A stretch of 64,000 nucleotides of DNA from Paenibacillus sp. FSL M7-0420 (GTDB taxonomy: Bacteria > Bacillota > Bacilli > Paenibacillales > Paenibacillaceae), in NCBI RefSeq assembly GCF_038002345.1, contig NZ_JBBOCJ010000001.1:1426001-1490000 (forward strand), written 5' to 3'. The notes below the pieces were generated by a model that searched no databases, was not told where the DNA came from, and saw nothing but the letters and a program-made list of their open reading frames with translations. The translations under genes were made by a program, and so were the position numbers. Below are positions 36,939-53,615 of the stretch, piece by piece; positions within the stretch are counted from its first letter, which is position 1, and each line of letters starts with the position of its first letter.

Positions 36939-39900
36939 ATGAAGAAGAAATTCGGCCTTAACTTTTTTAAGCCGGTGGAGAGCTATTCCGGGAACTGGTC
37001 CATTCTTGAAGAGAAAAATAGAGATTGGGAGAACATGTACCGCCAGCGCTGGTCTCACGATAAAGTAGTCCGCACCACCCACGGCGTGAACTGTACAGGC
37101 TCCTGCAGCTGGAAGGTGTTCGTGAAGAACGGGATCATCACCTGGGAGAACCAGCAGATCGATTACCCGTCCTGCGGACCGGATATGCCGGAGTTCGAGC
37201 CGCGCGGCTGTCCGCGCGGAGCTACCTTCTCCTGGTACGAATACAGCCCGCTGCGCGTGAAGTATCCGTATATCAGAGGGAAGCTGTGGCGGCTGTGGCA
37301 GACGGCGCTCCAGGAGCATGACAATTATGTCGATGCCTGGGCCAGCATTGTGGAAGATCCCGAGAAGGCCAGCCAGTATAAGAAGGCACGCGGCAAGGGC
37401 GGCCATGTCCGGGTAGCCTGGGATGATGCCCTGCGGCTGATCGCAGCGCAGCTGATCTATACGATCCGCAAATACGGCCCTGACCGGATCGCCGGGTTCA
37501 CCCCGATTCCGGCCATGTCGATGGTCAGCTACGCTTCAGGAGCGCGGTTCATCTCGCTGCTGGGCGGTCAGATGCTGAGCTTCTATGACTGGTATGCCGA
37601 TCTTCCTCCGGCTTCGCCGCAGATCTGGGGCGAGCAGACGGATGTCCCGGAATCCTCGGACTGGTACAACGCCGGTTACCTGATGATGTGGGGCTCGAAC
37701 GTGCCGCTGACCCGGACGCCGGACGCCCACTTCATGACCGAAGTGCGCTACAAAGGCACCAAGGTCGTATCGGTCGCCCCGGATCTCGCCGAGAACGTGA
37801 AGTTCGCCGACAATTGGCTGGCTCCGAATCCCGGCTCGGATGCAGCGCTTGCCCAGGCGATGACGCATGTTATCCTGCAGGAATTCTACCAGGAACGCCA
37901 GGAGCCGATGTTCCTGAATTATGCCAAGCAATATACCGACATGCCGTTCCTGATTCTGCTCGATCCGCATGAGGACAGCCTGAAGGGCGGACGCTTCCTG
38001 CGGGCCAGTGATCTGGGCGATGCTTCTCCGCACTCGGACTGGAAGCCGGTGATCTTCGATGAAGCCACAGGCGAGATGATTGTGCCGAACGGGACGATGG
38101 GGCAGCGCTGGGAGGAAGGCAAGAAGTGGAACCTGATTCTTGAGCGGGAGGACGGCAGCAAGGTGGAGCCGGCCCTGACCATTGAAGGCCATGGGGAAGA
38201 GTGGACGGAGATCGTATTCCCGTACTTCGATAATGCCGGTAACGGCACCTTCAGCAGAATCATCCCGGCCCGGAAGATGAAGCTTGCGGACGGCACGGAA
38301 CGTTATGTCGCTACCGTATACGACCTGATGATGAGCCAGTACGGCATTAAGCGCAGAGACAGTCTGCTGAACGCCAAGGGATATGAGGATGAAATGTCTC
38401 ATTACACTCCGGCCTGGCAAGAGAAGATTACTACAGTAAAAGCAAGCGTCGTTGTGCAGATTGCCCGCGAGTTCGCCCAGAACTCCATTGAGACCGGCGG
38501 ACGCTCCATGATTATCATGGGCGCAGGTATCAACCACTGGTTCAACAGTGATACCATCTATCGTTCCATCCTGAATCTGGTGGTGCTGACCGCATCTCAG
38601 GGAGTCAACGGCGGCGGCTGGGCGCATTATGTCGGCCAGGAGAAATGCCGTCCGATTGAAGGCTGGTCCACCGTTGCCTTCGCGAAGGATTGGCAGGGTC
38701 CAGCGCGGCAGCAGAATGCAACCTCGTTCTTCTATTTTGCCACCGAGCAGTGGCGGTATGAGGAGAGTGGCACCGATTCCCTGAAATCGCCGACCGGCGG
38801 GGATGTTGCTTACCAGCACCCGGCAGATTACAACGTGCTGGCTGCGCGGCTAGGCTGGCTGCCGTCCTTCCCGCAATTCAACAAGAACAGCCTGCTGTTC
38901 GCCGAGGAAGCGGCGCAGCAAGGCAAGAAGACGAATGCGGAGATTATCGGCCATGCCGTAGAAGAGATTACATCGCGGAAGACGCGCTTTGCTGTAGAAG
39001 ATCCCGGCGCACCGGAGAACTTCCCGCGCTCCCTGTTCATCTGGCGCTCGAACCTGATCTCAAGCTCCGCCAAGGGACAGGAATACTTCATGAAGCATCT
39101 GCTCGGAGCCTCGGATGGTCTGCTGGCCGAGCCGAATGAGGAGCAGAAGCCGGAGGAGATCGTCTGGCGGGAGGATGTGGAAGGCAAGCTGGATCTGATG
39201 GTCGCCCTGGATTTCCGGATGACCACGACGCCGCTGTATGCCGATATTGTCCTGCCGGCCGCAACCTGGTATGAGAAAACAGATCTGTCGTCCACCGACA
39301 TGCATCCGTTCGTCCATCCGTTCAATCCGGCCGTGAATCCGCTATGGGAATCCCGTTCCGACTGGGATATCTACCGCCAGCTCTCGGAGGTATTCTCCGA
39401 AATGGCGAAATCGCAGCTGCCCGGCGTCTATAAAGATGTGGTAATGTCTCCGCTGGGCCATGACTCCATCAGCGAAATCTCACAGCCGATGGGTCTGGTC
39501 AAGGATTGGGCCAAGGGCGAGGTGCCGGCCATTCCGGGTAAAACCATGCCGAACTTCACCATTGTCGAGCGGGATTACACGCAAATTCACCATAAATACA
39601 GCTCGCTCGGACCGAATCTGGCTACCGGCAAAGCAGGCGCACACGGCGTCAGCTTCTCGGTTGCCGAAGAATACGAAGAGCTGAAGAAGATCAGCGGTGT
39701 GCATTACGACGAAACGATCCGGCACGGACTGCCGAAGCTGCAGACGGCCCGCCAGGCGGCGGATGCCATTCTGCATCTGTCTTCCGCCACCAACGGCCGC
39801 GTCTCCCAGAAGGCTTATGAGTCGGCCGAGAAGGATCACGGGGTCGAGCTGCGGGATATTTCGGCAGACCGGGCCGCCGAGAAAATTACGTTCCAGAGCA

Positions 39901-40613
39901 TTACCGCACAGCCGCGAGAGGTGATTCCGACACCGGTATTCAGCGGCTCGAATAAGCAAGGCCGCCGGTATTCGCCGTTCACTACGAACATCGAACGTCT
40001 CGTGCCGTTCCGTACCCTGACCGGGAGACAACATTTCTATATTGACCATGAGATCTTCCAGCAGTTCGGCGAAGCGCTGCCGGTCTACAAGCCGACCCTG
40101 CCTCCAATAGTCTTCGGGCCGCGCGACAAGGCCGTGAAGGGCGGAACCGATGCGCTGGTTCTGAGATACCTGACGCCGCACGGCAAATGGAATATCCACT
40201 CGACCTACCAGGATAACCAGCACATGCTGACCTTGTTCCGGGGAGGTCCGACGGTGTGGATCAATAACGAGGATGCGGCGGCTCATGACATTGCGGATAA
40301 CGACTGGCTTGAGGTCTATAACCGTAACGGGGTCGTCACTGCGCGCGCCGTGGTCAGCCACCGGATGCCGAGAGGCACCATGTTCATGTACCACGCCCAG
40401 GATAAGCATATTCAGGTGCCGGGCTCCGAGATTACGGATACGCGCGGCGGAAGCCATAATGCGCCAACCCGGATTCACCTGAAGCCTACCCAGATGGTCG
40501 GCGGATATGCACAGCTCAGCTACGGCTTCAACTACTACGGTCCGATCGGCAACCAGCGTGATGTCTACGTAGCCGTCCGCAAAATGAAGGAGGTCAACTG
40601 GCTTGAAAATTAA
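36939..40613 (+). CDS. narG: Respiratory nitrate reductase, alpha subunit
   Basis: This is the 1,224-residue catalytic subunit that reduces nitrate to nitrite at a molybdenum bis-MGD centre. The N-terminal cluster ligands His48, Cys52, Cys56 and Cys91 are present (THGVNCTGSCSW, PRGCPRGATFSW). Asp221 in DLPPASPQIWGEQTDVPESSDWYN aligns with the molybdenum ligand of E. coli NarG. There is no twin-arginine signal, as expected for a cytoplasm-facing enzyme. AAGGAGTG precedes the ATG at 36939. It heads narGHJI and depends on the cofactor genes moeA, moaA, mobB and mobA-moaE downstream. Confidence 0.97.
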   Translation: MKKKFGLNFFKPVESYSGNWSILEEKNRDWENMYRQRWSHDKVVRTTHGVNCTGSCSWKVFVKNGIITWENQQIDYPSCGPDMPEFEPRGCPRGATFSWYEYSPLRVKYPYIRGKLWRLWQTALQEHDNYVDAWASIVEDPEKASQYKKARGKGGHVRVAWDDALRLIAAQLIYTIRKYGPDRIAGFTPIPAMSMVSYASGARFISLLGGQMLSFYDWYADLPPASPQIWGEQTDVPESSDWYNAGYLMMWGSNVPLTRTPDAHFMTEVRYKGTKVVSVAPDLAENVKFADNWLAPNPGSDAALAQAMTHVILQEFYQERQEPMFLNYAKQYTDMPFLILLDPHEDSLKGGRFLRASDLGDASPHSDWKPVIFDEATGEMIVPNGTMGQRWEEGKKWNLILEREDGSKVEPALTIEGHGEEWTEIVFPYFDNAGNGTFSRIIPARKMKLADGTERYVATVYDLMMSQYGIKRRDSLLNAKGYEDEMSHYTPAWQEKITTVKASVVVQIAREFAQNSIETGGRSMIIMGAGINHWFNSDTIYRSILNLVVLTASQGVNGGGWAHYVGQEKCRPIEGWSTVAFAKDWQGPARQQNATSFFYFATEQWRYEESGTDSLKSPTGGDVAYQHPADYNVLAARLGWLPSFPQFNKNSLLFAEEAAQQGKKTNAEIIGHAVEEITSRKTRFAVEDPGAPENFPRSLFIWRSNLISSSAKGQEYFMKHLLGASDGLLAEPNEEQKPEEIVWREDVEGKLDLMVALDFRMTTTPLYADIVLPAATWYEKTDLSSTDMHPFVHPFNPAVNPLWESRSDWDIYRQLSEVFSEMAKSQLPGVYKDVVMSPLGHDSISEISQPMGLVKDWAKGEVPAIPGKTMPNFTIVERDYTQIHHKYSSLGPNLATGKAGAHGVSFSVAEEYEELKKISGVHYDETIRHGLPKLQTARQAADAILHLSSATNGRVSQKAYESAEKDHGVELRDISADRAAEKITFQSITAQPREVIPTPVFSGSNKQGRRYSPFTTNIERLVPFRTLTGRQHFYIDHEIFQQFGEALPVYKPTLPPIVFGPRDKAVKGGTDALVLRYLTPHGKWNIHSTYQDNQHMLTLFRGGPTVWINNEDAAAHDIADNDWLEVYNRNGVVTARAVVSHRMPRGTMFMYHAQDKHIQVPGSEITDTRGGSHNAPTRIHLKPTQMVGGYAQLSYGFNYYGPIGNQRDVYVAVRKMKEVNWLEN

Positions 40614-42174
40614 AGCGCAAGTGGCAATGGTAATGAATCTGGATAAATGCATCGGCTGCCACACCTGCAGCGTGACCTGTAAGACCACCTGGACAAACCG
40701 CAAGGGTGCGGAATATATGTGGTTCAACAACGTGGAAACGAAGCCGGGTATCGGCTATCCGAAGCGCTGGGAGGACCAGGAGCTGTACAAGGGCGGCTGG
40801 CAGCTGCGCAAGGGCCGGCTTGAGCTGAAATCCGGCAACAAGCTGTCCAAGATCGCGCTCGGCAAAATCTTCTACAACCCTGATATGCCGGAAATGAAGG
40901 ATTATTATGAGCCTTGGACCTATAACTATGAGCATCTGACGAGTGCCGGGGAGCAGAAGCATTCCCCGGTCGCCCGGGCCCACTCTGCTGTCACCGGCGA
41001 GAAGATGGATCTGGAATGGGGACCGAACTGGGAGGATGATCTGGCGGGCGCGCATGTGACCGGCCCGCTGGACCCGAACATTCAGAAGATCGAGGAAGAG
41101 ATCAAGTTCAACTTCGAGAAATCCTTCATGATCTATCTGCCCCGTCTGTGCGAGCACTGCCTGAACCCGAGCTGTGTGGCTTCCTGTCCGTCGGGAGCGA
41201 TGTACAAACGCGATGAGGACGGCATCGTTCTCGTGGACCAGGAAGCCTGCCGCGGCTGGAGATATTGCATGACCGGCTGTCCGTACAAGAAGGTGTACTT
41301 CAACTGGCAGACCAACAAGGCGGAGAAATGCACCTTCTGCTTCCCGCGTGTGGAGGCAGGCCTGCCAACGGTATGCTCCGAGACCTGTACGGGCCGTATC
41401 CGCTACCTTGGCGTTCTGCTGTATGATGCCGACAAGGTGCTGGATGCCGCATCCACCCCGAATGAGAAGGATCTGTACCAGGCCCAGTGTGATCTGTTCC
41501 TGAATCCGCATGATCCGGAAGTCAGAGCGCAGGCGAGAAAAGACGGCATCTCCGAGGACTGGCTGGAGGCTGCGCAGAACTCGCCGGTCTACAAGCTGGC
41601 GATTGAGCATAAGCTGGCCTTCCCGCTGCACCCGGAGTACCGGACGCTGCCGATGGTATGGTACGTACCGCCGCTTAGCCCGATCATGAACTACTTTGAG
41701 GGCAAGGATTCACTGAAGAACCCGGATATGATTTTCCCTGCGATCGAAGAGATGCGTACACCTATTCAATATCTGGCGAATATGCTGACGGCTGGCGACA
41801 CGGAGACCGTGAAGGAAGCTCTGCAGCGGATGGCGATGATGCGCTCTTACATGCGCGCCCAGTCTACCGGCCAGGAGTTCGATCTTAGCCGTCTGGAACG
41901 TGTCGGCATGACGGCGCAGCAGACCGAGGAAATGTACCGCCTGCTGGCCATTGCCAAATATGAGGACCGCTTCGTGATCCCGACCTCCCACAAGGAGCAG
42001 CACATGAACCCTTACCGTGCCCAAGGCTCTGCCGGTTACGGCAGCGGAATGGGCGATATGGGCTCCGGATCCGGCTGTGACGGCTGCGGACCGGCGAGCC
42101 CTTCCGGCGACACCTTGAAGACCGGCAAGGAGATGTATGAAGAGAATTTCTACGGGGGGATCTGGCGTGATTGA
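40603..42174 (+). CDS. narH: Respiratory nitrate reductase, beta subunit
   Basis: This 523-residue electron-transfer subunit carries three 4Fe-4S clusters and one 3Fe-4S cluster. Cysteine sets are CIGCHTCSVTCKTTW (near the start), CEHCLNPSCVASCPSGA, CRGWRYCMTGCPYKK and CTFCFP...CSETCTGR; the Trp in CRGWRYC marks the 3Fe-4S site. The start is TTG at 40603, 8 nt after GGAGGT and overlapping narG by 11 nt. The end is Gly/Ser-rich with CDGCGP, an addition of unknown meaning. It passes electrons from NarI heme to NarG. Confidence 0.96.
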   Translation: MKIKAQVAMVMNLDKCIGCHTCSVTCKTTWTNRKGAEYMWFNNVETKPGIGYPKRWEDQELYKGGWQLRKGRLELKSGNKLSKIALGKIFYNPDMPEMKDYYEPWTYNYEHLTSAGEQKHSPVARAHSAVTGEKMDLEWGPNWEDDLAGAHVTGPLDPNIQKIEEEIKFNFEKSFMIYLPRLCEHCLNPSCVASCPSGAMYKRDEDGIVLVDQEACRGWRYCMTGCPYKKVYFNWQTNKAEKCTFCFPRVEAGLPTVCSETCTGRIRYLGVLLYDADKVLDAASTPNEKDLYQAQCDLFLNPHDPEVRAQARKDGISEDWLEAAQNSPVYKLAIEHKLAFPLHPEYRTLPMVWYVPPLSPIMNYFEGKDSLKNPDMIFPAIEEMRTPIQYLANMLTAGDTETVKEALQRMAMMRSYMRAQSTGQEFDLSRLERVGMTAQQTEEMYRLLAIAKYEDRFVIPTSHKEQHMNPYRAQGSAGYGSGMGDMGSGSGCDGCGPASPSGDTLKTGKEMYEENFYGGIWRD

Positions 42175-42733
42175 TCTGAGCAAACTGCATCATTACAAGC
42201 AATCCTTCGGTTATTTCGCCCTGCAGCTCATGTACCCGGAGAAGCTGGATTTCCATCCGGCTTTTCTGGAAGAGGCGTTTGACCCCGGCCACCCGGCATA
42301 TTCCCATGTCCAGACCTACTGGAAGCTCATGCAGAGCTTCAGCCTGGAAGAGATCCAGGAGAATTATGCGGCTACGTTTGATTTTCATAAGGACTGCGCA
42401 CTCTATATGACCTACTTCAAATTCGAGGATGCCAAGGAACGCGGGCAAATGCTCGCCAAGCTGAAGCTGCTGTACGAAATGTTCGGCCTTGAAATGCCGG
42501 AGAATGAGCTGCCGGATTACCTGCCGCTGATGTGTGAGTTCATCTATGCCGCGCAGTGGCTGGACGTCCCCGGCGCGCCGGAGAACTTCCGGATGCTGAT
42601 GGCGATTCTGGAGGATGGCTCGTATCATCTGGTGAAGGCGCTGGAGCAGCGGGAGAGTCCTTATTATCACCTGGTTAAAGGATTGCGAGAAACCTTCAAA
42701 GCTTGTGCGGAACAGGAGGCCCTAAGTCAATGA
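42167..42733 (+). CDS. narJ: Nitrate reductase assembly chaperone
   Basis: This 188-residue helical protein of the NarJ/TorD group binds apo-NarG and allows cofactor insertion before membrane attachment. The start GTG at 42167 lies 8 nt after a G-rich ribosome site and overlaps the narH stop by 8 nt. Typical features are FHPAFLEEAFD, DFHKDCALYMTYFKFEDAKERGQML and LYEMFGLEMPENELPDYLPLMCEF. It is not part of the mature enzyme. Confidence 0.93.
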   Translation: MIDLSKLHHYKQSFGYFALQLMYPEKLDFHPAFLEEAFDPGHPAYSHVQTYWKLMQSFSLEEIQENYAATFDFHKDCALYMTYFKFEDAKERGQMLAKLKLLYEMFGLEMPENELPDYLPLMCEFIYAAQWLDVPGAPENFRMLMAILEDGSYHLVKALEQRESPYYHLVKGLRETFKACAEQEALSQ

Positions 42734-43416
42734 ATATGCTGGGTCAGTTTTTATGGGTTATTTTCCCGTATATGTGTATGGTCGTATTTATCGGCGGGCA
42801 TATTGCCCGCTACCGCAAGGATCAATTCAATTGGACCGCCAAATCCAGTGAATTCATTGAGAAAAAACAGCTGAAATTCGGCAGCATTCTGTTCCACCTC
42901 GGCATCATGCCGGTCATTCTGGGTCACATCGGCGGTCTCGCCGTGCCCAAGTCCTGGCTGGAGGCTGTCGGCGTCAGCGATCATATGTACCACATTGGCG
43001 CCGTATACATCGGAGGGATCTTCGGTGCGGCCACCCTGGCTGGAATGCTGATCCTGACCTCACGGCGCTTCACCCTGAAGAACGTCCGCCGGCTCAGCAG
43101 CGCCTCCGATCTGATCGTCAACTCGCTCCTGCTGTTCATTGTGTTCATGGGGATGTACTCCACTATTGTCACGAATGCCGTACAGCCTGAGTTCGATTAC
43201 CGGGATACAATCTCCGTGTGGTTCCGCGGCTTGTTCATGTTCCGCCCGGACCCGTCGCTGATGAGCGGAGTGCCGTTCTCCTTCAAGCTTCACATCCTGT
43301 CAGGGTTCGCGATCTTTGCCTTCTGGCCGTTCACCCGGCTGGTTCACGTATGGAGTGTTCCGTTGAATTATGTAGGCAGAAGTTATATCCTATACAGAAG
43401 AAATAAATCAAATTAA
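42730..43416 (+). CDS. narI: Respiratory nitrate reductase, gamma subunit
   Basis: This is a 228-residue membrane cytochrome b that oxidises menaquinol and feeds electrons to NarH. Five hydrophobic segments are visible. The four heme ligands sit at His56 and His66 (FHLGIMPVILGH) and His188 and His206 (FKLHILSGFAIFAFWPFTRLVH), essentially the same positions as in E. coli NarI. The ATG at 42730 overlaps the narJ stop codon (ATGA) with AGGAGG upstream; the longer open frame before it is ignored. Confidence 0.95.
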   Translation: MNMLGQFLWVIFPYMCMVVFIGGHIARYRKDQFNWTAKSSEFIEKKQLKFGSILFHLGIMPVILGHIGGLAVPKSWLEAVGVSDHMYHIGAVYIGGIFGAATLAGMLILTSRRFTLKNVRRLSSASDLIVNSLLLFIVFMGMYSTIVTNAVQPEFDYRDTISVWFRGLFMFRPDPSLMSGVPFSFKLHILSGFAIFAFWPFTRLVHVWSVPLNYVGRSYILYRRNKSN

Positions 43417-43467
43417 CGGAAGAGCAGCGTGGACTTCTTTCCCTGTTCAATCCGAGGAGAGAAAGCG

Positions 43468-43926
43468 ATGATGAATAAGGTGGATTACCAGACCCGGCTT
43501 GACCAGATCCGTAAGTGCCTGGGATATGACTTCATGTCGCTGGCGTTCGCCGAACCGGCGGAGTATGACTATGCGATCCGCTGGAAATACGCCTCAGGCA
43601 ATATAAGTGACCGATACAAACGGATTGTGCTGCAATCCGGCAGAGGGATTGCCGGCATCGTGTTCAAGACCGGCAAGCCGTTCCTGATCCCTTCGGTGAA
43701 GCTTATGGTGAAGCCCGACAGCCTGTTCAATTATCCCATCACCAAGATGGAGAATCTGAACAGCATCGGGGCGGTGCCGATGTGGAATGATGCCCGCGTG
43801 GCAGGCGTGCTTCTCGGCGGCTTCAGAGGGGACCGGCAGGTGACCGCTGAGATGCTGGGTGACCTGGAAGCGACGGCGCGGGGCGGCATTGGAGACTTGG
43901 ACGGGAAGGAATTGTTGCTCAGTTGA
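43468..43926 (+). CDS. nreA: NreA, GAF-domain nitrate sensor
   Basis: This 152-residue single GAF domain matches NreA of the staphylococcal NreABC system, which binds nitrate and controls autophosphorylation of NreB. Visible marks are YDFMSLAFAEPAEYDYAIRWKYASGN, RGIAGIVFKTGKPFLIPSV and SIGAVPMWNDARVAGVLLGGFR. GAGGAGAG is 6 nt before the ATG at 43468. Its stop overlaps the nreB start by one base. It directly follows narI, so sensor and enzyme genes may share transcripts. Confidence 0.9.
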   Translation: MMNKVDYQTRLDQIRKCLGYDFMSLAFAEPAEYDYAIRWKYASGNISDRYKRIVLQSGRGIAGIVFKTGKPFLIPSVKLMVKPDSLFNYPITKMENLNSIGAVPMWNDARVAGVLLGGFRGDRQVTAEMLGDLEATARGGIGDLDGKELLLS

Positions 43927-44969
43927 TGAACCCCGCTACGGATTTGCGCAGTGAGCTAATGACGAAGCTGTTCGAGAACAGCTCGGAGGCGATGTTCTTT
44001 TTTGACCGGCAAGGGAAAGCCCTGGCGATGAATCCGGCTGCCGAGACGATCGTCGACAAGGATATTCTGAGGCAGCTGTATCAGGGGAATCCTGAAGCGC
44101 TCTGCGGAACCTGCCGGGGATATACCAGCGAGACGGAGCTGCGGACCTGCCTGAATTGTTATTTTCACACCCCGGACTCGGAGGAGTTCACCTCTTATCA
44201 GGTCTATCTGGAGACCAGAGACAAGGGGATTGTCCCGTATGCGGCAACCTTTCACACTATAGATGAAGAGAACGGAATCCGGGTGTTCATGCTCAGGGAT
44301 CTATCGAGACAGTTCAAGACGCAGGAGAAGTTCTACCAGAACAAAATGATGAAGCATATTATTGAAGCCCAGGAGAATGAACGCAAGCGGATCTCCCGTG
44401 AACTGCACGACAGCGTTGCGCAAGAGCTGATGAGTGCCGTGATTGATCTGCGTGTGCTGAAATATATGACAGCCGATGACGGCCTGTTGAAGAAAGTGAA
44501 GCAAACCGAAGTGTCGATGACCCGCCTGCTGAGTGATATCCGCAACCTGTCGGTGGAGCTTAGGCCGGCTGCCCTGGATGATTTCGGTCTGGAGGCGGCT
44601 TTCCGCTCCCACTTCAAGCGGGTGGAGCAAACGTATGGCCTCGTGATTGAGTATGAATCCCGGCTGCCCGAGAAGCGGTACGGGAGTGAGATTGAGACGG
44701 TCATGTACCGGGTATGCCAGGAAGCGGTGCTGAATGCCCTGAAGTACGCCCAGGTAGACAGCGTCAAGGTCTCGCTTACCGAGAACGGCGGCATGCTGCA
44801 GCTTCTGGTTCAGGATGACGGCATCGGCTTCCAGCTGGGAGATGAGCCTGCCGGAACCGGACTCGGCCTGTTCGGGATGCAGGAGCGGGCGGAGCTGGTG
44901 GGTGGAACTTTCAGCGTAGATTCAGAGACCGGCAAGGGGACCCGGATTATGCTGCAGGTTCCTGTATGA
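43926..44969 (+). CDS. nreB: NreB, oxygen-sensing histidine kinase
   Basis: This 347-residue cytoplasmic kinase has a PAS-like N-terminal domain holding an oxygen-labile 4Fe-4S cluster. Cys60, Cys63, Cys75 and Cys78 (CGTC, 11 residues, CLNC) have the same spacing as in Staphylococcus carnosus NreB. The HisKA_3 box [18 protein letters not shown] contains His161, and the ATPase end reads [18 protein letters not shown]. Without oxygen the intact cluster promotes phosphorylation and transfer to NreC. The ATG at 43926 overlaps the nreA stop; a TTG three bases earlier is possible. Confidence 0.94.
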
Positions 44970-44997
44970 TGGGCCGAAGGAAAGGAATGAGCTTCTG

Positions 44998-45645
44998 ATG
45001 AAGATCGTCATTGCGGACGACCATGCGATCGTGCGCAGCGGGTTCTCCATGATTCTTAATTTTCAGGATGATATTGAAGTGATCGGAGCAGCGGCGGACG
45101 GCAGGGAAGCCTACACCATGGTCGCCAAGCTCCGGCCGGATATCCTGATCATGGATTTAAGCATGCCTCCGGGAGAAAGCGGTCTGACCGCAACCGGCAA
45201 GATCAAAGAGGATTATCCCGACACCCGGATCCTGATTCTGACGATGCATGACGATGATGAATATCTCTTCCATGTCTTGAAGAACGGGGCCTCCGGGTAT
45301 GTGCTCAAGAGTGCGCCGGACGAGGAGCTGCTGCTGGCGATCCGGACGATTTACGAAGGCGGTACTTATATTCATCCCAAGATGGCTACCTCGCTGGTCC
45401 GTGAGTTCATTAAGCAAGACAAGACCGGCGGGACGGAAGATCTGTTCGAGCTGCTGTCCAAGCGGGAGCTGGAGATTCTGCCGCTCATTGCCAAGGGATA
45501 CGGGAATAAGGAGATTGCAGAGAAGCTCTTTATTTCCGTTAAGACCGTGGAAGCCCACAAGGCCAAAATTATGGAGAAGCTTAACCTTAAAAGCCGGCCC
45601 GAGCTGGTCGAATACGCTTTGAGGAAAAAAATGCTGGATTTCTGA
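44998..45645 (+). CDS. nreC: NreC, NarL/FixJ-type response regulator
   Basis: This 215-residue regulator has a receiver domain with Asp53 ([13 protein letters not shown]), acidic pocket Asp7/Asp8 (IADDHA), and a C-terminal LuxR-type helix-turn-helix ([43 protein letters not shown]). Phosphorylated by NreB, it activates nitrate-respiration promoters. Palindromes like its TAGGG-N4-CCCTA consensus occur before narG and narK in this window. The ATG at 44998 is 28 nt after nreB. Confidence 0.94.
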
Positions 45646-45668: not shown

Positions 45669-46196
45669 ATGCCGGAACATACAGACCTTAAGTTTACGCT
45701 GCCCGCGATGCGCATCCTTGAGAATGAACACCGCTATCTATCTTTTCTGATGGAGGAATGGCATGCCATTGTCCTCTGGTTTGAGCAGGAGCAGATTACG
45801 CTGGAAGAGGCTAAGGCCCAGCTTGAGAAGCTGCGTAAGGCAGTGCTTGCGTTCAGCGTTCCGCTGAAGCGGCACACGGAGAAGGAAGAGACGTATTTCT
45901 TTCCGCTGCTGGGCCAGTATATCGGCTTCGACCAGGGTCCGCTGGCCGGCATCCAGGAGGAGCACCGTGAGATTGACGGGTACATCGGGCATTTCCTGCA
46001 TCACTCCGAGGGAGATATCAGCCAGATGACACTCGCGGGAATCCGCTCAGCCGTACAGGATGCGGGAGAGGCCTTTGAGGTGCTGACGGTCCATTTTGTC
46101 AAAGAAGAGACCGTGATCTTCCCGATGGGCGAGAACCAGCTGAGTCCGAAGGACAAGGAGCGCCTAGGCGGACAGTTGAATACGCTGATTACGTGA
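45669..46196 (+). CDS. Hemerythrin-domain protein
   Basis: This 175-residue four-helix protein has di-iron ligand candidates in ILENEHRYLSFL, RHTEKEETYFFPLL, IQEEHREIDGYIGHFLHH and HFVKEETVIFPMGE. Hemerythrin-type proteins of this size carry oxygen or repair NO-damaged iron-sulfur centres. It is 23 nt after nreC, making it the last gene of the nar-nre stretch before a terminator. It is distinct in sequence from the hemerythrin-like gene upstream of narG, so it is not a recent duplicate. Confidence 0.85.
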   Translation: MPEHTDLKFTLPAMRILENEHRYLSFLMEEWHAIVLWFEQEQITLEEAKAQLEKLRKAVLAFSVPLKRHTEKEETYFFPLLGQYIGFDQGPLAGIQEEHREIDGYIGHFLHHSEGDISQMTLAGIRSAVQDAGEAFEVLTVHFVKEETVIFPMGENQLSPKDKERLGGQLNTLIT

Positions 46197-46291: not shown

Positions 46292-46711
46292 TCAGTGCTT
46301 CCCCATCTGTGCTTTCAACCTTAGGATTTGTTGTTCTGTGAGACCTGAAGCTTTAAGAATAACTGAGGTCTCTACTCCAAGCGCAAGAAGTTCAAGTACT
46401 ATAGCCTCTGCCCTTTTTTGTTCACCCTTAGCAATTCCCTCCGCAATTCCTTCCGCACGTCCTTCCGCACGTCCTTCTGCTTTAGCACCATTCATCCGTG
46501 AAGCCTCATCACGCAAATACTTCATCCGGGCATCATACTCCATACGTGTAGCGGCATCCTGGCTCAGAAATTCAAGTGTATCCATTGCTTTTTTTAACAT
46601 GGGTTCATTCATGGTCAGCACCTCCCAGTTTGGTTGTTCAACACCCTTCAGGAATAATAACCAGTTGATTAAACCGCCTGTTAACGGTATGGCCTGATCC
46701 TCAAGCTCGGC
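46292..46711 (-). pseudogene. Remnant of an Rpn-family (PD-(D/E)XK) nuclease/transposase
   Basis: Only the C-terminal part remains. From 46711 the frame reads E-L-E-D-Q-A-I-P-L-T-G-G-L-I-N-W-L-L-F-L-K-G-V-E-Q-P-N-W-E, then M-N-E-P-M-L-K-K-A-M-D-T-L-E-F-L-S-Q-D, and a repeated GRAEGRAEGIAEGIAKGEQK linker, all typical of the ends of Rpn or PD-(D/E)XK family transposase proteins of about 300 residues. Stop codons lie immediately upstream, and the nuclease domain is missing. It sits between the hemerythrin terminator and the narK promoter region. An ATG at 46612 or GTG nearby could still start a short peptide. Confidence 0.75.
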
Positions 46712-46891: not shown

Positions 46892-46913
46892 CCCCACTTT
46901 GTGGGGTTATTTT
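46892..46913. other. Hairpin upstream of narK
   Basis: CCCCAC (46892-46897) and GTGGGG (46901-46906) form a tight hairpin with a TTT loop, followed by TTATTTT. It resembles a weak terminator that would insulate narK from upstream transcription. Confidence 0.45.
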
Positions 46914-46977
46914 AGGGTTTACCCTGTCAGGGAAAGGGGACTCCCCTATATCTGAGCCGGGGAACGGCGGATACAAT
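46913..46977 (+). promoter_or_regulatory. NreC-like palindromes and -10 box of narK
   Basis: TAGGGTTTACCCTG (46913-46926) matches TAGGG-N4-CCCTA at nine of ten fixed positions. A second palindrome, AGGGGACTCCCCT, lies at 46935-46947. TACAAT at 46972-46977 is a plausible -10, with its first base 31 bp from the centre of the second palindrome, the same geometry as before narG. Confidence 0.55.
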
Positions 46978-47040
46978 GAGTACAGGAAGTATCAATAACA
47001 GGAAATCATCACAAGAAAAAACGGCGGAAAGGTGAAACGA

Positions 47041-48531
47041 ATGATTAAAAAAATGCAATTGCCGCTGCAAACCTTAAACTTGATTACCGGATTCATGGTG
47101 TGGGTGATTATCTCTTCGCTGATGCCCTTTATCTCGGAGGATATCAGCATTCCTTCCGGACGGCTGGCGATGGTCACGGCGATTCCGGTAGTGCTTGGCT
47201 CGATTCTGAGAATTCCGCTGGGCTATTATGCGAATATTCTGGGGGCGCGGATTATTTTTATGTCGAGCTTCGTGCTGCTGCTGTTCCCGGTCTACTTCAT
47301 CAGTGAAGCGTCCACAGTCACACATCTTATTATCGGAGGCCTGTTTTTGGGGGTAGGAGGAGCTGTATTTTCAGTAGGCGTAACCTCATTGCCGAAGTAC
47401 TATGCGAAGGAGAAGCATGGTCTGGTTAACGGTATCTATGGAATCGGGAATCTCGGTACAGCGGTTACGACCTTCTCAGCGCCAATCCTGGCAGCACAGT
47501 TCGGCTGGCAGACTGCGGTCAAAATGTATCTGATTCTGCTGCTGGTATTCATCGTTCTTAACTTCTTCTTCGGTGACCGTCAGGAGCCCAAGCTCCGCAC
47601 TCCGATTATTGAACAGATCAAGAGCGTGTCCAGGAACGAGAAGCTTTGGCTGTTCTCCCTGTTCTATTTCATTACCTTTGGCTCCTTCGTAGCCTTTACC
47701 ATTTATCTGCCTAATTTTCTGGTATCCAGTTTTGGTCTGGAAAAGGTAGATGCCGGGATGCGCACCGCCGGCTTCATCGCGGTAGCGACCTTCTTCCGTC
47801 CGATTGGCGGCTGGCTGGCTGACAAGTTCCAGCCTTTATTCTTACTTATCTTCACCTTCAGTGTATATACGGTGGCTGCTATTATTCTGGCCTTCATGCC
47901 GGACATGGGCCTGTATACGGCAGGCTGCCTGGCGATTGCGGTAAGTGCCGGAATCGGCAACGGTGTTATTTTCAAGCTGGTACCTCTGTACTTCAATAAG
48001 CAGGCGGGGATTGCCAACGGGATTGTGTCGATGATGGGCGGTCTGGGCGGATTCTTCCCTCCGATTATGCTATCTGTGATTCATGCGGCAACCGGACAAT
48101 ATTCCATCGGCTTCATGCTGCTGTCCCAGGTAGCGTTGGCCAGTCTGGTGCTTGTGGTGTGGCTGTACTTCCAGGACCGGCTTGCTCTTACCTCTGAGGT
48201 GTTCAATTCGACCGGCCAGGGGATTCTGGTTACGGATGTGTCCGGCCACATCAAGACGGTCAATCCGGCCTTCACGAGGCTTACCGGCTACACCGAAGAA
48301 GAGGTGCTGGGCAAACAGCCGAGCCTGCTGAAATCCGGCCGCCAGCCGAAGGACTTTTACCGCGTGATGTGGGGTGAGGTCAAGTCAAAGGGCATGTGGC
48401 AGGGCGAGATCTGGAACAAGCGCAAGAACGGGGAAGAATACCTGCAGTGGCTGAATATTAGCGCCGTGAAGGATGAGACCGGTGAAGATGTCCGGTATGT
48501 AGGCACCTTCAGCGATATTACGCAGAAATAA
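47041..48531 (+). CDS. narK: NarK-type nitrate/nitrite transporter fused to a PAS domain
   Basis: This 496-residue protein has two parts. Residues of about 1-375 are a 12-helix major facilitator of the nitrate/nitrite porter family, with the signature GLFLGVGGAVFSVGVTSLPKYY and a second one near GIGNGVIFKLVPLYFNKQAG. Residues of about 378-496 are a full PAS plus PAC domain (VFNSTGQGILVTDVSGHIKTVNPAFTRLTGYTEEEVLGKQP, then RYVGTFSDITQK), presumably cytoplasmic, with no output domain after it. AAAGGTG is 7 nt before the ATG at 47041. It probably imports nitrate or exchanges it for nitrite, and the PAS domain may gate transport or signal. No stop codon or repeat marks the junction. Confidence 0.9.
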   Translation: MIKKMQLPLQTLNLITGFMVWVIISSLMPFISEDISIPSGRLAMVTAIPVVLGSILRIPLGYYANILGARIIFMSSFVLLLFPVYFISEASTVTHLIIGGLFLGVGGAVFSVGVTSLPKYYAKEKHGLVNGIYGIGNLGTAVTTFSAPILAAQFGWQTAVKMYLILLLVFIVLNFFFGDRQEPKLRTPIIEQIKSVSRNEKLWLFSLFYFITFGSFVAFTIYLPNFLVSSFGLEKVDAGMRTAGFIAVATFFRPIGGWLADKFQPLFLLIFTFSVYTVAAIILAFMPDMGLYTAGCLAIAVSAGIGNGVIFKLVPLYFNKQAGIANGIVSMMGGLGGFFPPIMLSVIHAATGQYSIGFMLLSQVALASLVLVVWLYFQDRLALTSEVFNSTGQGILVTDVSGHIKTVNPAFTRLTGYTEEEVLGKQPSLLKSGRQPKDFYRVMWGEVKSKGMWQGEIWNKRKNGEEYLQWLNISAVKDETGEDVRYVGTFSDITQK

Positions 48532-48573
48532 ACGGATGTACGGATGCTCAGTCCGGTACCCGCTGAGGAGCAG

Positions 48574-49824
48574 ATGAGGGTGGAGATGAACAGAATCTCG
48601 GTTACTGTAGCGGAAGCTGTGCTGCGGGTAACCGGAAGAGTATGCCGCACAGGTACAGAGAACGTTCCGCTTCATGCAAGCTATGGACGTATTCTGGCCG
48701 GGCCGCTCACCGCAACCCATGATGTACCGCATTTCACCCGGTCCCCGTATGACGGCTATGCCATCGCTTCCAGAGATTCGGCCGGTGCTTCCGGCAGTAA
48801 CCGGGTAAGCTTCACCGTGGTGGATCATATCGGCGCAGGGGAAGTGTCGCAGGCTGTAATCGGCCCTGGTGAAGCGGTACGGCTGATGACAGGGGCAGCG
48901 CTCCCGGCCGGGGCAGATGCGGTAGTTATGTTTGAACAAGCAGTCTCCGCAGGGCGGACATTTACGATCCGCAAGGCGTTTGCGCCGCAGGAGAATCTCT
49001 CTCTGCAAGGGGAGGATATGCAGGCGGGGGAGACAGTCATTCCGGCCGGGAGCTTCATTCATCCCGGGGTTGTGGCGCTGCTGGCTACATTCGGTTACGG
49101 GGAGGTTAAGGCAGGGAAGCGGCCGGTGGTGGGGATTCTGTCTACAGGCACCGAGCTGCTGGCAGTGACAGACCCGCTCGTACCCGGCAAAATCCGTAAC
49201 AGCAACGGGCCGATGATTGCCGCCCAGCTCGCGCGGATGGGCATTCCTTACCGGATCTATGATACAGCAGCGGACCGGCTGGAGGAATGCCTGCAGACCG
49301 TCCGTCAGGCGCTCGCTGAGACCGACTGTCTGATCACAACGGGCGGAGTGTCAGTGGGCGATTATGACTACCTGCCGGAGATCTACAAGCGCCTTGGAGC
49401 TGAGGTGTTGTTCAACAAGGTAGCGATGCGTCCCGGCAGTGTGACTACAGTGGCAGTAGCCGGGGATCAATTCCTGTTCGGACTGTCCGGCAATCCGTCG
49501 GCTTGCTTCACCGGCTTCGAGCTGTTCGTAAGACCTGCGCTGCTTAAGATGATGGGGGCGGAACAATTATATCTCCCGCGTACCACAGCCGCTCTGGCGG
49601 AGGATTTCACCAAGGCGAGCCCGTTCACCCGGTTCATCCGGGCGGTATATGACGGCACTGCGGTCCGGCCGGCCGGCTTCAACAAATCGAACGCCGTCTC
49701 CTCCATCGCACGCGGTAATTCCCTAATAGTACTGCCGGGCGGAACAAGAGGCTTCGCCGCAGGAGATCAGGTGGATGTCCTGCTGCTCGGGGTGGAAGAG
49801 GGCATGAATGATTGGGTACTGTAA
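48574..49824 (+). CDS. moeA: Molybdopterin molybdenumtransferase
   Basis: This is a MoeA of about 416 residues, which inserts molybdate into adenylylated molybdopterin. Motifs include HFTRSPYDGYAI (about 50-61), MTGAALPAGADAVVMFE, the domain-III P-loop-like segment ILSTGTELL...GKIRNSNGPMI, TTGGVSVGDYDYLPEI and GLSGNPSACFTGFE. The start is uncertain: ATGs at 48544, 48574 and 48586 are in frame; GAGGAG just before 48574 favours it, though the spacing is short. It follows narK by about 40 nt and precedes moaA. Confidence 0.94.
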   Translation: MRVEMNRISVTVAEAVLRVTGRVCRTGTENVPLHASYGRILAGPLTATHDVPHFTRSPYDGYAIASRDSAGASGSNRVSFTVVDHIGAGEVSQAVIGPGEAVRLMTGAALPAGADAVVMFEQAVSAGRTFTIRKAFAPQENLSLQGEDMQAGETVIPAGSFIHPGVVALLATFGYGEVKAGKRPVVGILSTGTELLAVTDPLVPGKIRNSNGPMIAAQLARMGIPYRIYDTAADRLEECLQTVRQALAETDCLITTGGVSVGDYDYLPEIYKRLGAEVLFNKVAMRPGSVTTVAVAGDQFLFGLSGNPSACFTGFELFVRPALLKMMGAEQLYLPRTTAALAEDFTKASPFTRFIRAVYDGTAVRPAGFNKSNAVSSIARGNSLIVLPGGTRGFAAGDQVDVLLLGVEEGMNDWVL

Positions 49825-49856
49825 GGTTAAGTGTACGGGAAGGGAGATAGACGCAT

Positions 49857-50873
49857 ATGAATTATCATCCACTACAAGATCAGCTGCGGCGGCCTATCCA
49901 CGATTTGCGGATTTCGGTCACGGACCGGTGTAATTTCCGCTGCTCCTACTGCATGCCAAAGGAGATATTCGGTGACGACTATGCTTTTCTTCCATCCGGT
50001 GAGCTGCTCACCTTCGAAGAGATTGGCCGGCTGGCGGGGCTGTTCGTCTCGCTTGGCGTAAGCAAGATCCGCCTGACCGGAGGCGAGCCGCTAATGCGCC
50101 GCCATCTGCCGGAGCTGGTTGCCTGCCTCTCTGCCATTCCCGGTGTCGGGGATATGGGACTGACGACGAACGGGGCTCTGCTGGGCGGACAGGCTGCGCC
50201 GCTGTATGCTGCGGGCCTGCGCAGGCTGAATGTCAGCCTGGATGCGCTGGACCCGGAGCTGTTCGGCAGAATGAACGGGCGCGGCTTCAGTCCGGGAATG
50301 ATTCTGGACGCTATAGATCAGGCGGCGGCCGCCGGGTTCGAGGTCAAGGTGAATATGGTTGTCCAGCGGGGCGTGAACGAATCAGAGATTCTTCCGATGG
50401 CCGCCTACTTCAAGAAGCGGAAGATCACGCTGCGCTTCATCGAGTTCATGGATGCCGGCAACGATAACGGCTGGAGCTATGATAAGGTCGTCACCAAGCA
50501 AGAAATCCTGCAGCAGTTGCACAGCGTCTATACGCTGGAAGCTCTTGAGCAGAATTACAGCGGCGAGGTCGCGCAGCGCTACGGCTATCTTGGCAGTCCG
50601 GCCCAGATCGGCTTCATCACTTCCGTGTCCGAATCGTTCTGTTCCACCTGCTCGCGTGCCCGGCTGTCTTCTGACGGCAAGCTGTATAGCTGCCTGTTTG
50701 CCTCCAAGGGCTTTGACCTTAGGGCCATGCTGCGCGGAGGGGCTGGCGATGAAGAGCTGCTGGCAGCGATTAAGCAGGTATGGGAGCAGCGCAGCGACCG
50801 TTATTCCGATGAGCGGACGGAAGAGACCCGCAGAAGCAAGGCCAAGATTGGCATGTCCTATATTGGAGGATAA
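49857..50873 (+). CDS. moaA: GTP 3',8-cyclase MoaA
   Basis: This is a 338-residue radical SAM enzyme that starts molybdopterin synthesis from GTP. The SAM cluster is Cys25, Cys29 and Cys32 (TDRCNFRCSYCMP), followed by RLTGGEPLMRRH. The second cluster uses FCSTCSRARLSSDGKLYSC. The C-terminal di-glycine (MSYIGG), needed for activity in MoaA, is intact. AAGGGAG precedes the ATG. Its partner MoaC is not encoded in the window. Confidence 0.96.
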   Translation: MNYHPLQDQLRRPIHDLRISVTDRCNFRCSYCMPKEIFGDDYAFLPSGELLTFEEIGRLAGLFVSLGVSKIRLTGGEPLMRRHLPELVACLSAIPGVGDMGLTTNGALLGGQAAPLYAAGLRRLNVSLDALDPELFGRMNGRGFSPGMILDAIDQAAAAGFEVKVNMVVQRGVNESEILPMAAYFKKRKITLRFIEFMDAGNDNGWSYDKVVTKQEILQQLHSVYTLEALEQNYSGEVAQRYGYLGSPAQIGFITSVSESFCSTCSRARLSSDGKLYSCLFASKGFDLRAMLRGGAGDEELLAAIKQVWEQRSDRYSDERTEETRRSKAKIGMSYIGG

Positions 50874-52493: not shown

Positions 52494-52517
52494 ATTCTAC
52501 TACAGGAGGTGCCCTTG

Positions 52518-53615
52518 GTGCTGACAGGAATTATACTGGCGGGCGGACAGAACTCCCGGATGCAGGGCCGCAATAAAGCCCTCCTGACTTACCACGGGGA
52601 ACCGTTCATTGTCCGGCAGGTGAGGGAGCTGCAGACCCTGTGCTCCAGCGTGATTGTAGTCACGAACGATCCTTCCCCGTATCTGGAACATCTTCCATTG
52701 GATATTCAATATATACCGGATGTCTATGCCGGGCATGGGCCGCTGAGCGGATTTCATGCCGCTTTTGCCAGCGCGGAGACGGACTATGCCTGGGTGGTAA
52801 GCTGTGACAGCCCTGATATATCAGCTCCGGCCGCCTCATGGATGCTTGCCCGGCTGGAAGCAGGCGGTTATGATGCGGTTCTGCCGGTGATTGGCGGCAA
52901 GCATCAGATGCTGCATGGCGTATACCGGGCGCACCGGATCTTGCCGGACATTACAGCAAGACTTGCGAACCGTGAGTACCGGCTGGCTGGTTTATTAGAA
53001 TCAATGCACTGGCTAGGGGTGGGAAGGGATGAGCTGGCCGGTGCGGGGTTAGAGGAAGATTTCGCGGCAGATATAGATACACCCGAGCAATATGAGCAGC
53101 TGCTGCATCTATCGAAGGGAAGTGAGCGAATGGGCCATTCGTTATTTGAAATTACAGAGTCCGCGATTATACCCGCTGAGGTATCCGATAAAGTTCTGCG
53201 CAGAGAAGCCGGGGCGATTACCTTATTCATCGGGACGGTGCGTGAGTTCACGCAGGGGAAGAAAACCTTGTATCTTGAATATGAAGCATACCCGTCCATG
53301 GCTGTAACGCAGCTGAAGCGCATCGGGCAGGAAGTGCTGGAGCGCTGGCCGGATACGAAGGTTGCAGTCACCCACCGGATCGGCAGGCTGGAGATTACCG
53401 ATATTGCCGTGGTCATCGCAGTCTCCTCGCCCCACCGTAAGGCTGCCTATGAAGCGAATGAATACGTGATTGAGCGGATCAAGCAAATCGTCCCGATCTG
53501 GAAAAAAGAAACCGGCGAGGACGGCAAAGCGTGGATTGGCGACCAGCTCGGGCAGCAGACGTACCCCGAGGGACGGCCCGACTTGCCGGATATTCCGGCG
53601 GAGGACGAGAGGTAG
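52518..53615 (+). CDS. mobA: MobA-MoaE fusion protein
   Basis: This 365-residue protein joins two steps of molybdenum cofactor synthesis. Residues of about 1-200 are MobA, which adds GMP to Mo-molybdopterin (GIILAGGQNSRMQGRNKALL, DVYAGHGPLSG, VVSCDSPDIS, ADIDTPEQY). Residues of about 212-345 are MoaE, the catalytic subunit of molybdopterin synthase (LFIGTVREFTQGKKTLYLEYEAYPSMA, VTHRIGRLEITD, VSSPHRKAAYEA, IKQIVPIWKKE). The reading frame is continuous across the joint. AGGAGGT is 7 nt before the GTG at 52518; GTG 52509 overlaps it. The sulfur carrier MoaD is not encoded nearby. Confidence 0.9.
   Translation: MLTGIILAGGQNSRMQGRNKALLTYHGEPFIVRQVRELQTLCSSVIVVTNDPSPYLEHLPLDIQYIPDVYAGHGPLSGFHAAFASAETDYAWVVSCDSPDISAPAASWMLARLEAGGYDAVLPVIGGKHQMLHGVYRAHRILPDITARLANREYRLAGLLESMHWLGVGRDELAGAGLEEDFAADIDTPEQYEQLLHLSKGSERMGHSLFEITESAIIPAEVSDKVLRREAGAITLFIGTVREFTQGKKTLYLEYEAYPSMAVTQLKRIGQEVLERWPDTKVAVTHRIGRLEITDIAVVIAVSSPHRKAAYEANEYVIERIKQIVPIWKKETGEDGKAWIGDQLGQQTYPEGRPDLPDIPAEDER

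Follow-up and report, generated by a model that had tools for sequence, protein, structure and literature searches.

What a PAS domain does at the end of a nitrate transporter, with no output domain behind it, is the question raised by narK-PAS, a gene in the 64-kb stretch of Paenibacillus sp. FSL M7-0420 DNA analysed here (the window; Table 1). A sequence-only reading had described an unbroken frame leading from a NarK-like transporter into a PAS domain at about residues 378-496 with no output domain, and this description stands. The frame is open from the ATG at 47041 to the stop codon at 48529-48531, with no internal stops, and encodes 496 aa. There is an in-frame GTG upstream at 47032; an AAAGGTG-like ribosome site precedes the ATG at 47041, which is where the matches of relatives begin. 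Pfam recognises MFS_1 over residues 15-339 (E 3.5e-38) and several PAS models, the best being PAS_9 at residues 393-495 (E 6.5e-16), with no output domain after the PAS. The NCBIfam PAS S-box model matches residues 382-496, in agreement with the boundaries first proposed. Matches to the NifL and DibA models, in their PAS parts, fall in the same region. The protein ends one residue past the PAS match and has no C-terminal kinase of the sort found in SLC5/STAC-type transporter-kinases.

Table 1. Features of the narK-PAS region in the window.
Feature	Position	Strand	Basis or remark
NreC-like palindromes	36732 and 36852		upstream of narG
narGHJI, respiratory nitrate reductase	36939..43416	+	named from sequence and gene order
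narG	36939-40613	+	named from sequence and gene order
narH	40603-42174	+	named from sequence and gene order
narJ	42137-42733	+	named from sequence and gene order
narI	42703-43416	+	named from sequence and gene order
nreABC	43465..45645	+	model score, order, family
nreA	43465-43926	+	NreA model 141 bits, below 175 cut-off
nreB	43923-44969	+	order and family
nreC	44998-45645	+	order and family
hemerythrin-like protein	45669..46196	+	sequence reading; weak similarity to Fe-S repair RIC/YtfE
NreC-like palindrome TAGGG-N4-CCCTG	46913..46926	+	begins 128 bp upstream of narK-PAS
narK-PAS, nitrate/nitrite MFS transporter with C-terminal PAS	47041..48531	+	496 aa, no output domain
NarK/NarT-type transporter part, residues 10-375	47068..48165	+	Pfam, NCBIfam, Foldseek, alignment
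TM12 (355-378 in model) with linker and A'-alpha helix (379-392)	48103..48216	+	model, alignment
PAS domain, residues 393-495	48217..48525	+	Pfam, alignment, model
moeA and moaA, molybdenum-cofactor genes	48544..50873	+	sequence reading; begin 12 bp after narK-PAS
moeA	48544-49824	+	sequence reading
moaA	49857-50873	+	sequence reading

By sequence and predicted fold the transporter part is of the NarK/NNP nitrate-nitrite MFS type, and a function in transport is predicted. In an alignment of 121 transporter proteins, drawn from the near loci described below and from further chosen loci and including 101 that carry the PAS, R57 (47209-47211) is conserved in 119 and R253 (47797-47799) in all 121; these we take to be the two substrate-binding arginines. 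N137, G306, N307 and G308, presumably the N/GNG motif residues, are likewise present in 121/121. The top PDB match of the transporter model in Foldseek is 4u4w (TM 0.66 by query, 0.75 by target), and phmmer against solved structures finds 4u4t at 58 bits. The NarK subfamily model TIGR00886 scores 195.2 bits over residues 10-337, below its curated cut-off of 311.7. That cut-off is strict, since two PAS-less paralogues linked to nas genes fall short as well (292-294 bits), and by this score the NarK-PAS clade is the more divergent.

Could the fusion be an artefact of sequencing or assembly, or the PAS a decayed remnant of a neighbouring kinase? When a protein database was searched with NarK-PAS, 7999 candidates were scored and 5613 matched at E < 0.001. 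All of the best 120 of these 5613 carry MFS and PAS, so that the joint is not the sequencing error of one genome; they are 470-538 aa long, and their Pfam lists name no output domain. A second search, with a 55% identical copy as query, gave at least 120 matches; the 120 listed (one of them the query) all combine MFS with PAS and come from Paenibacillus, Bacillus swezeyi, haynesii and paralicheniformis, Mesobacillus, Neobacillus, Heyndrickxia, Aneurinibacillus and others. Among named genomes, 375 of 427 pattern-matching stretches encode a relative; in all of the best 80 of these 375, hereafter the near loci, the match extends to residue 493 or beyond. Full-length fusions occur in 15 of 40 related genomes (own genome included), one of which (G016) has two copies, and the remainder have PAS-less or partial matches only, or no match. 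Eight of 398 sampled genomes of the phylum have a match at E <= 1e-60 and seven (own included) a full-length fusion, all within the window's own class. Sampling of 398 genomes of that class gave 123 with such a match and 66 with the fusion, across 11 families; 64 of these are full-length (own included) and two (G624, G503) are without the N-terminal part but with the PAS present, while the other 57 genomes have PAS-less matches only. As no more than three candidates were scored per genome, the phylum and class counts are lower bounds.

The two parts also look to have been inherited together. No insertion or deletion falls within residues 360-400 in any of the 101 aligned fusions, and over residues 355-494 one protein has one inserted residue. 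Comparison of the window gene with ten relatives gave dN/dS values of 0.034-0.057 for the transporter (10/10 pairs) and 0.039-0.081 for the PAS (9/10 pairs, the tenth being saturated). Across 99 proteins the mean pairwise identity is 75% for the transporter and 63% for the PAS, with a correlation of r = 0.89 between the two over 4851 pairs, which are non-independent. In the 40 related genomes, a MASE3-PAS-GGDEF-EAL protein has the closest PAS outside a transporter; NreB fails to align at the PAS sites. Neither the frameshift at the junction nor the decayed kinase fragment that had been envisaged was thus found: given the architecture shared by relatives, the PAS dN/dS of 0.04-0.08 and the failure of NreB to align at the pocket sites, we reject both, and rate either as exceedingly improbable.

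The PAS is under purifying selection; what might it bind? A model of the PAS alone (mean pLDDT 86) covers residues 373-496 and was built from 38 sequences; its best PDB match is the FAD-PAS of NifL, 2gj3 (TM 0.88/0.92, rmsd 1.4), together with the NifL-NifA complex 9qq6; the CPS_1291 PAS and many LOV domains come next in the ranking, with Aer at rank 44. By sequence, 3ewk (MmoS) and 2gj3 come out as the nearest solved structures. MmoS, NifL and Aer are described as holding FAD (PMC10468136, PMC9668731), and the redox potentials given for Aer and MmoS are low, close to -290 mV (PMC9668731). According to a survey of flavin-PAS domains, a Trp at F-alpha is the primary determinant of FAD binding and an Asn the second pocket residue, and flavin-PAS clusters conserve at least two of three pocket residues, W and N in the NifL cluster (PMC10468136). 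In NarK-PAS the corresponding W444 (48370-48372), within model helix 439-450 (F-alpha), and N459 (48415-48417) are present in 101/101 fusions, as are N408, Y440, W453, G455 and F490, which bears out the earlier suggestion that the pocket be searched for flavin residues. The third pocket position, P427, is Pro in 98/101 fusions and aligns with Glu of NifL and His of Aer and MmoS.

This signature places the domain in the flavin-PAS class, yet it is not proof of flavin, because the pair is common among other PAS domains of related genomes: both residues occur in 15/34, W in 20/34 and N in 22/34. The control sample comprised 40 of 44 PAS-only rows, of which six were without one or both sites in the alignment; outside it were G030:C33, G030:C24 and G037:C34 (the latter two too short for the sites) and one G016 row, and G030:C33, tested apart, has both W and N. 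Moreover, a PA0285 construct with PAS2, where W and N are both present, is reported to have bound no FAD in MST (PMC10874727). On balance we consider that the PAS of NarK-PAS probably binds FAD as a member of the NifL-like flavin class. Over residues 378-496, Cys occurs at no position in more than 5/101 fusions, and His in more than 10/101 only at position 435 (Q 87, H 14). The Fe-S PAS of NreB has four cluster-binding Cys. The lack of a conserved Cys led us to reject a LOV photoreceptor and an Fe-S PAS of the NreB kind, and the lack of a conserved His a haem PAS of the FixL or DosP kind, so that haem, which had also been considered at first, is unlikely. It could instead be that the PAS binds a non-flavin small molecule such as nitrate, nitrite, a quinone or a metabolite and imposes product or feedback inhibition. 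The pocket is conserved and its cofactor only predicted, and the PAS would lie on the cytoplasmic side, where nitrite is made; however, the closest predicted fold and the pocket residues are those of flavin PAS domains, and we regard this alternative as quite unlikely.

A model for how a flavin-type PAS could act on the transporter starts from the junction. In the full-length AF2 model (pLDDT 77, 25 rows), TM12 (355-378) continues into a short A'-alpha helix (383-390) and then the PAS, whose placement against the membrane part is not readable. The C-terminus of 12-helix MFS carriers is cytoplasmic as a rule. With no output domain and with a fixed TM12-PAS spacing, TM12 is the sole covalent output of the PAS. 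According to the model, a NarK2/NarT-type respiratory nitrate/nitrite transporter would have its own cytoplasmic PAS, and the redox state of the PAS cofactor (FAD) would reflect that of the cytoplasm or the respiratory chain. A redox change at the cofactor would alter the A'-alpha helix, which as a fixed-length continuation of TM12 would shift the transporter between active and inactive states; the PAS signal path would then be reversed, towards the membrane domain rather than towards a C-terminal kinase or cyclase. The outcome would be a fast post-translational control of nitrate entry, added to the transcriptional control by NreABC.

Two precedents are relevant here. Substitutions in the A'-alpha/N-cap helix of NifL are reported to break its oxygen (redox) response (PMC3466315). 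Work on Mycobacterium tuberculosis located the oxygen inhibition of nitrate respiration at nitrate uptake and the redox control on the transporter NarK2 itself, NasA being exempt; as described there in 2012, none of 23 mutations, including both cysteines, relieved the inhibition, and the sensor was not found (PMC3445494). On the grounds of the TM12 output, the A'-alpha precedent in NifL and redox control at the level of NarK2, a redox-gated transporter is the best single reading, and we are evenly divided on whether a redox PAS, probably a flavin one, gates nitrate transport through TM12. The original suggestion of a transporter that is itself a redox sensor is in this sense plausible, with a flavin-type pocket and a conserved fusion behind it, but the W and N pair is not sufficient to prove it and the third pocket position is Pro. 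It should be noted that the PAS is not a general answer to redox control, as M. tuberculosis NarK2 is described as a plain 12-helix transporter.

The main rival is that the PAS is a cofactor-free assembly module, which senses nothing and either holds the transporter together as a dimer or ties it to nitrate reductase or some other partner, so as to deliver nitrate to NarGHI. PAS domains often merely dimerise. Such a module would be in keeping with the nar genes found within 10 kb of 79 of the near loci (best 80 of 375), with the Pro at the third pocket position and with PA0285 as a precedent for W and N without FAD. However, the invariance of W444, N459, N408, Y440 and F490 goes beyond the needs of a docking surface, and no nar genes lie within about 9 kb of 9/20 more distant fusion loci; we judge the assembly module to be unlikely, though it deserves to be taken seriously. 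These distant loci were chosen from related and class genomes, two of them from G016; L147 and L150 (the latter 3.8 kb) are shortened by contig ends. Eleven of the 20 have nar genes, and 16 have nar genes or moeA/moaA.

The gene neighbourhood also bears on whether the PAS works with the Nre system, either by contact with NreA or NreB, as the sequence-only reading suggested, or as part of a transceptor in which the transporter, by way of its PAS, signals nitrate flux to a partner, one of these two for instance. Matches to NreB and NreC lie within 10 kb of 78 of the near loci (best 80 of 375), which favours such a partnership; the two loci without them are L052, which a contig end cuts short, and L090, with narGHJI but without nreABC. 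At the distant fusion loci, in contrast, NreB plus NreC is found in 5/20, with no such match within about 9 kb in the other 15/20 (L150 offering only its 3.8 kb), and all seven loci of the staphylococcal family (f156) combine nreABC with a PAS-less NarT. The PAS and nreABC are uncoupled in both directions. The proposal that NarK-PAS is always accompanied by nreABC did not hold, and we reject an obligate partnership; because the uncoupling runs both ways, contact with NreA or NreB is not favoured. NreA is moreover reported to sense nitrate already (PMC8139620), and a transceptor seems to us decidedly improbable.

The link between NarK-PAS and Nre looks transcriptional instead, since NreC-like palindromes lie upstream of both narG and narK-PAS. 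A scan of the window for TAGGGN4CCCTA with at most one mismatch found three, a number not above chance (1.74 expected, and three or more in 28/100 shuffles); it is their placement, not their number, that is telling. With at most two mismatches, the palindrome occurs within 350 bp upstream of the gene at 66 of the best 80 of 375 loci, compared with 10 of the same 80 in an equal stretch inside the gene, and among the matches listed 16/20 lie at 96-136 bp upstream. As narT transcription is reported to be under NreC control (PMC8139620), this pattern fits NreC control of narK-PAS, the sites being putative. A scan of the window for FNR-type palindromes gave 21 matches against 21.2 expected, none of them upstream of narK-PAS.

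A hemerythrin-like gene is present near 49 of the near loci (best 80 of 375), often between nreC and narK-PAS. In the window a 109-aa ORF on the opposite strand (46292-46621, -) separates this gene from narK-PAS; it matches the C-terminal end of the PD-(D/E)XK transposase model PF12784 at 22.8 bits, below the 27.4 cut-off, and is perhaps a decayed piece of a mobile element. Further downstream, a 368-aa ORF (52509-53615) appears from its sequence to be a fusion protein, with MobA in front and MoaE behind, both enzymes of the molybdenum cofactor. Nar genes adjoin three of eight PAS-less NarKs used as an outgroup (see below), so that a respiratory NarK need not carry the PAS. Five sampled relatives have, in addition, a PAS-less paralogue (33-34% identical) beside large ORFs, and in the four whose neighbours were scanned these are nitrate/nitrite reductase genes of assimilatory type: L158 and L160 have a NasC-like/CysJ-like protein that falls short of the curated cut-offs of the NasC and CysJ models, and the cut-offs are passed by NirB and NasC in L161 and by NirB in L162. 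In the fifth, L159, the neighbour is a 1411-aa ORF of a size and order as in L158.

The history of the fusion was approached through trees of the transporter columns. The first, built by a quick method from 73 proteins (53 with and 20 without the PAS), was rooted with the eight PAS-less NarKs, which are 35-41% identical. It places six changes in PAS presence, of which the starred branches force at least five, and its deepest ingroup rows are PAS-bearing; the root is uncertain because the outgroup branch is long. A more careful tree of 63 ingroup rows, from which the outgroup and two short rows (L149 and L150) were excluded, gives five changes (bootstrap 5-95% range 5-5), and 0% of 200 bootstrap trees are satisfied by a single PAS change. 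The number of changes alone does not say which were gains and which were losses; once the outgroup is considered, the changes are most simply read as one old fusion in Bacilli followed by about five losses of the PAS. The staphylococcal NarT family accounts for one of these. The 120 relatives listed for its member L121 are all MFS only, with 383-392 aa and every named one from Staphylococcus, in a search whose length limit would have admitted PAS fusions, and the sister rows of the family, L136 and L137, retain both the PAS and nreABC. Another case is L114, which is 79% identical over the transporter and has an unrelated 25-residue tail in place of the PAS; an ORF that reads as ThiF/MoeB-like lies 95 bp downstream of it.

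The PAS is thus dispensable in some lineages, having been lost about five times, once in L114, with the transporter kept. If the transporter had possessed a contact surface for the PAS, its loss might have left a trace, but the ratio of change in cytoplasmic loops to that in TM segments, with loop boundaries taken from model helices, is no faster in PAS-less lineages than in distant PAS-bearing ones, and in the absence of loop relaxation we reject a lost contact surface. L114 stands apart in this comparison (3/33 versus 1/153), on tiny numbers.

As to the origin of the domain, the closest non-transporter PAS in the 40 related genomes, that of G030, is 50% identical over residues 371-495. Its protein has MASE3, three stretches of PAS, GGDEF and a partial EAL match, and the matching PAS is the last before GGDEF; nine of the ten sites compared have the same residues (T, N, P, Y, W, W, N, Y, F). 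With this PAS as the closest, it seems that the transporter acquired a PAS of the type found in front of cyclases, but not the cyclase itself.

Comparison with known systems underlines what is particular to NarK-PAS. It shares the MFS fold and substrate arginines with staphylococcal NarT and E. coli NarK (TIGR00886; 4u4w, 4jre, 4iu8), and staphylococcal loci have the gene order narGHJI-nreABC-narT as in the window, but neither NarT nor NarK has a PAS, the staphylococcal lineage descending, by the tree, from a PAS-bearing ancestor. The PAS shares its fold, F-alpha W and N with NifL PAS1 (2gj3), MmoS PAS-A (3ewk) and Aer PAS (8dik), which differ at the third pocket residue as noted above and which signal to NifA, a kinase and a chemoreceptor, respectively, whereas in NarK-PAS the transporter precedes the PAS and nothing follows. 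Transporter and sensor modules are likewise joined in one chain in the CbrA/CrbS-type SLC5-STAC-(PAS)-histidine kinases, which, as far as their descriptions go, belong to a different transporter family and have a kinase output. The KCNH (EAG/ERG) channels, too, are membrane transport proteins with a PAS that has no enzymatic output; these channels are eukaryotic, have an N-terminal rather than a C-terminal PAS, and the domain has a role in gating. The KCNH PAS pocket is described as hydrophobic, and a PAS ligand is reported to modulate EAG1 (PMC10468136).

Long narK genes have been on record for some time: 1500 nt in B. azotoformans, 1503 nt for narK3 of B. bataviensis and, from its coordinates, 1497 nt for narK2 of B. 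licheniformis, all described as NarK2-type antiporters (PMC3475470, PMC4719734). We liken these to the fusion by length alone; the excerpts of the two papers that we consulted make no mention of a PAS domain. Proteins of 498 aa from B. paralicheniformis and B. haynesii do carry MFS and PAS. Nor is the architecture unknown as data, since precomputed database Pfam lists show MFS plus PAS. No paper on a NarK-PAS fusion came up among the openly licensed PMC papers listed (subscription papers and preprints lying mostly outside this scope). NarK-PAS is a concrete and tractable candidate sensor for redox-controlled nitrate uptake in soil Bacilli, with its PAS-less sister proteins as natural controls, and may serve to admit nitrate only at times when the cell requires it for respiration. 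If so, it would represent an MFS carrier equipped with its own redox switch; we know of no other. The wider proposal, that an MFS transporter directly gated by its own flavin sensor is the missing sensor behind oxygen/redox control of respiratory nitrate uptake in Bacilli, acting through TM12 with a reversed PAS signal path, and that this arrangement preceded staphylococcal NarT, from which it was later lost, is more tentative, and we are inclined to doubt it slightly.

Three loci merit separate mention. At L140 (G557), two narK-PAS genes flank NreB-, NreC- and NreA-like matches at 7.0-14.4 kb; two further PAS matches precede another NreB-like match there, perhaps a PAS-PAS-kinase, and a third, PAS-less copy lies on another contig of the genome (L118). 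Two records may be mislabelled or contaminated: L111 (GC 0.436), an Arthrobacter beigongshangensis by its title, falls next to Sporosarcina in the tree, and L077, titled Bacillus subtilis DE0224 (GC 0.417) and not on the tree, has match identities in the cluster that resemble those of the Lederbergia locus L070.
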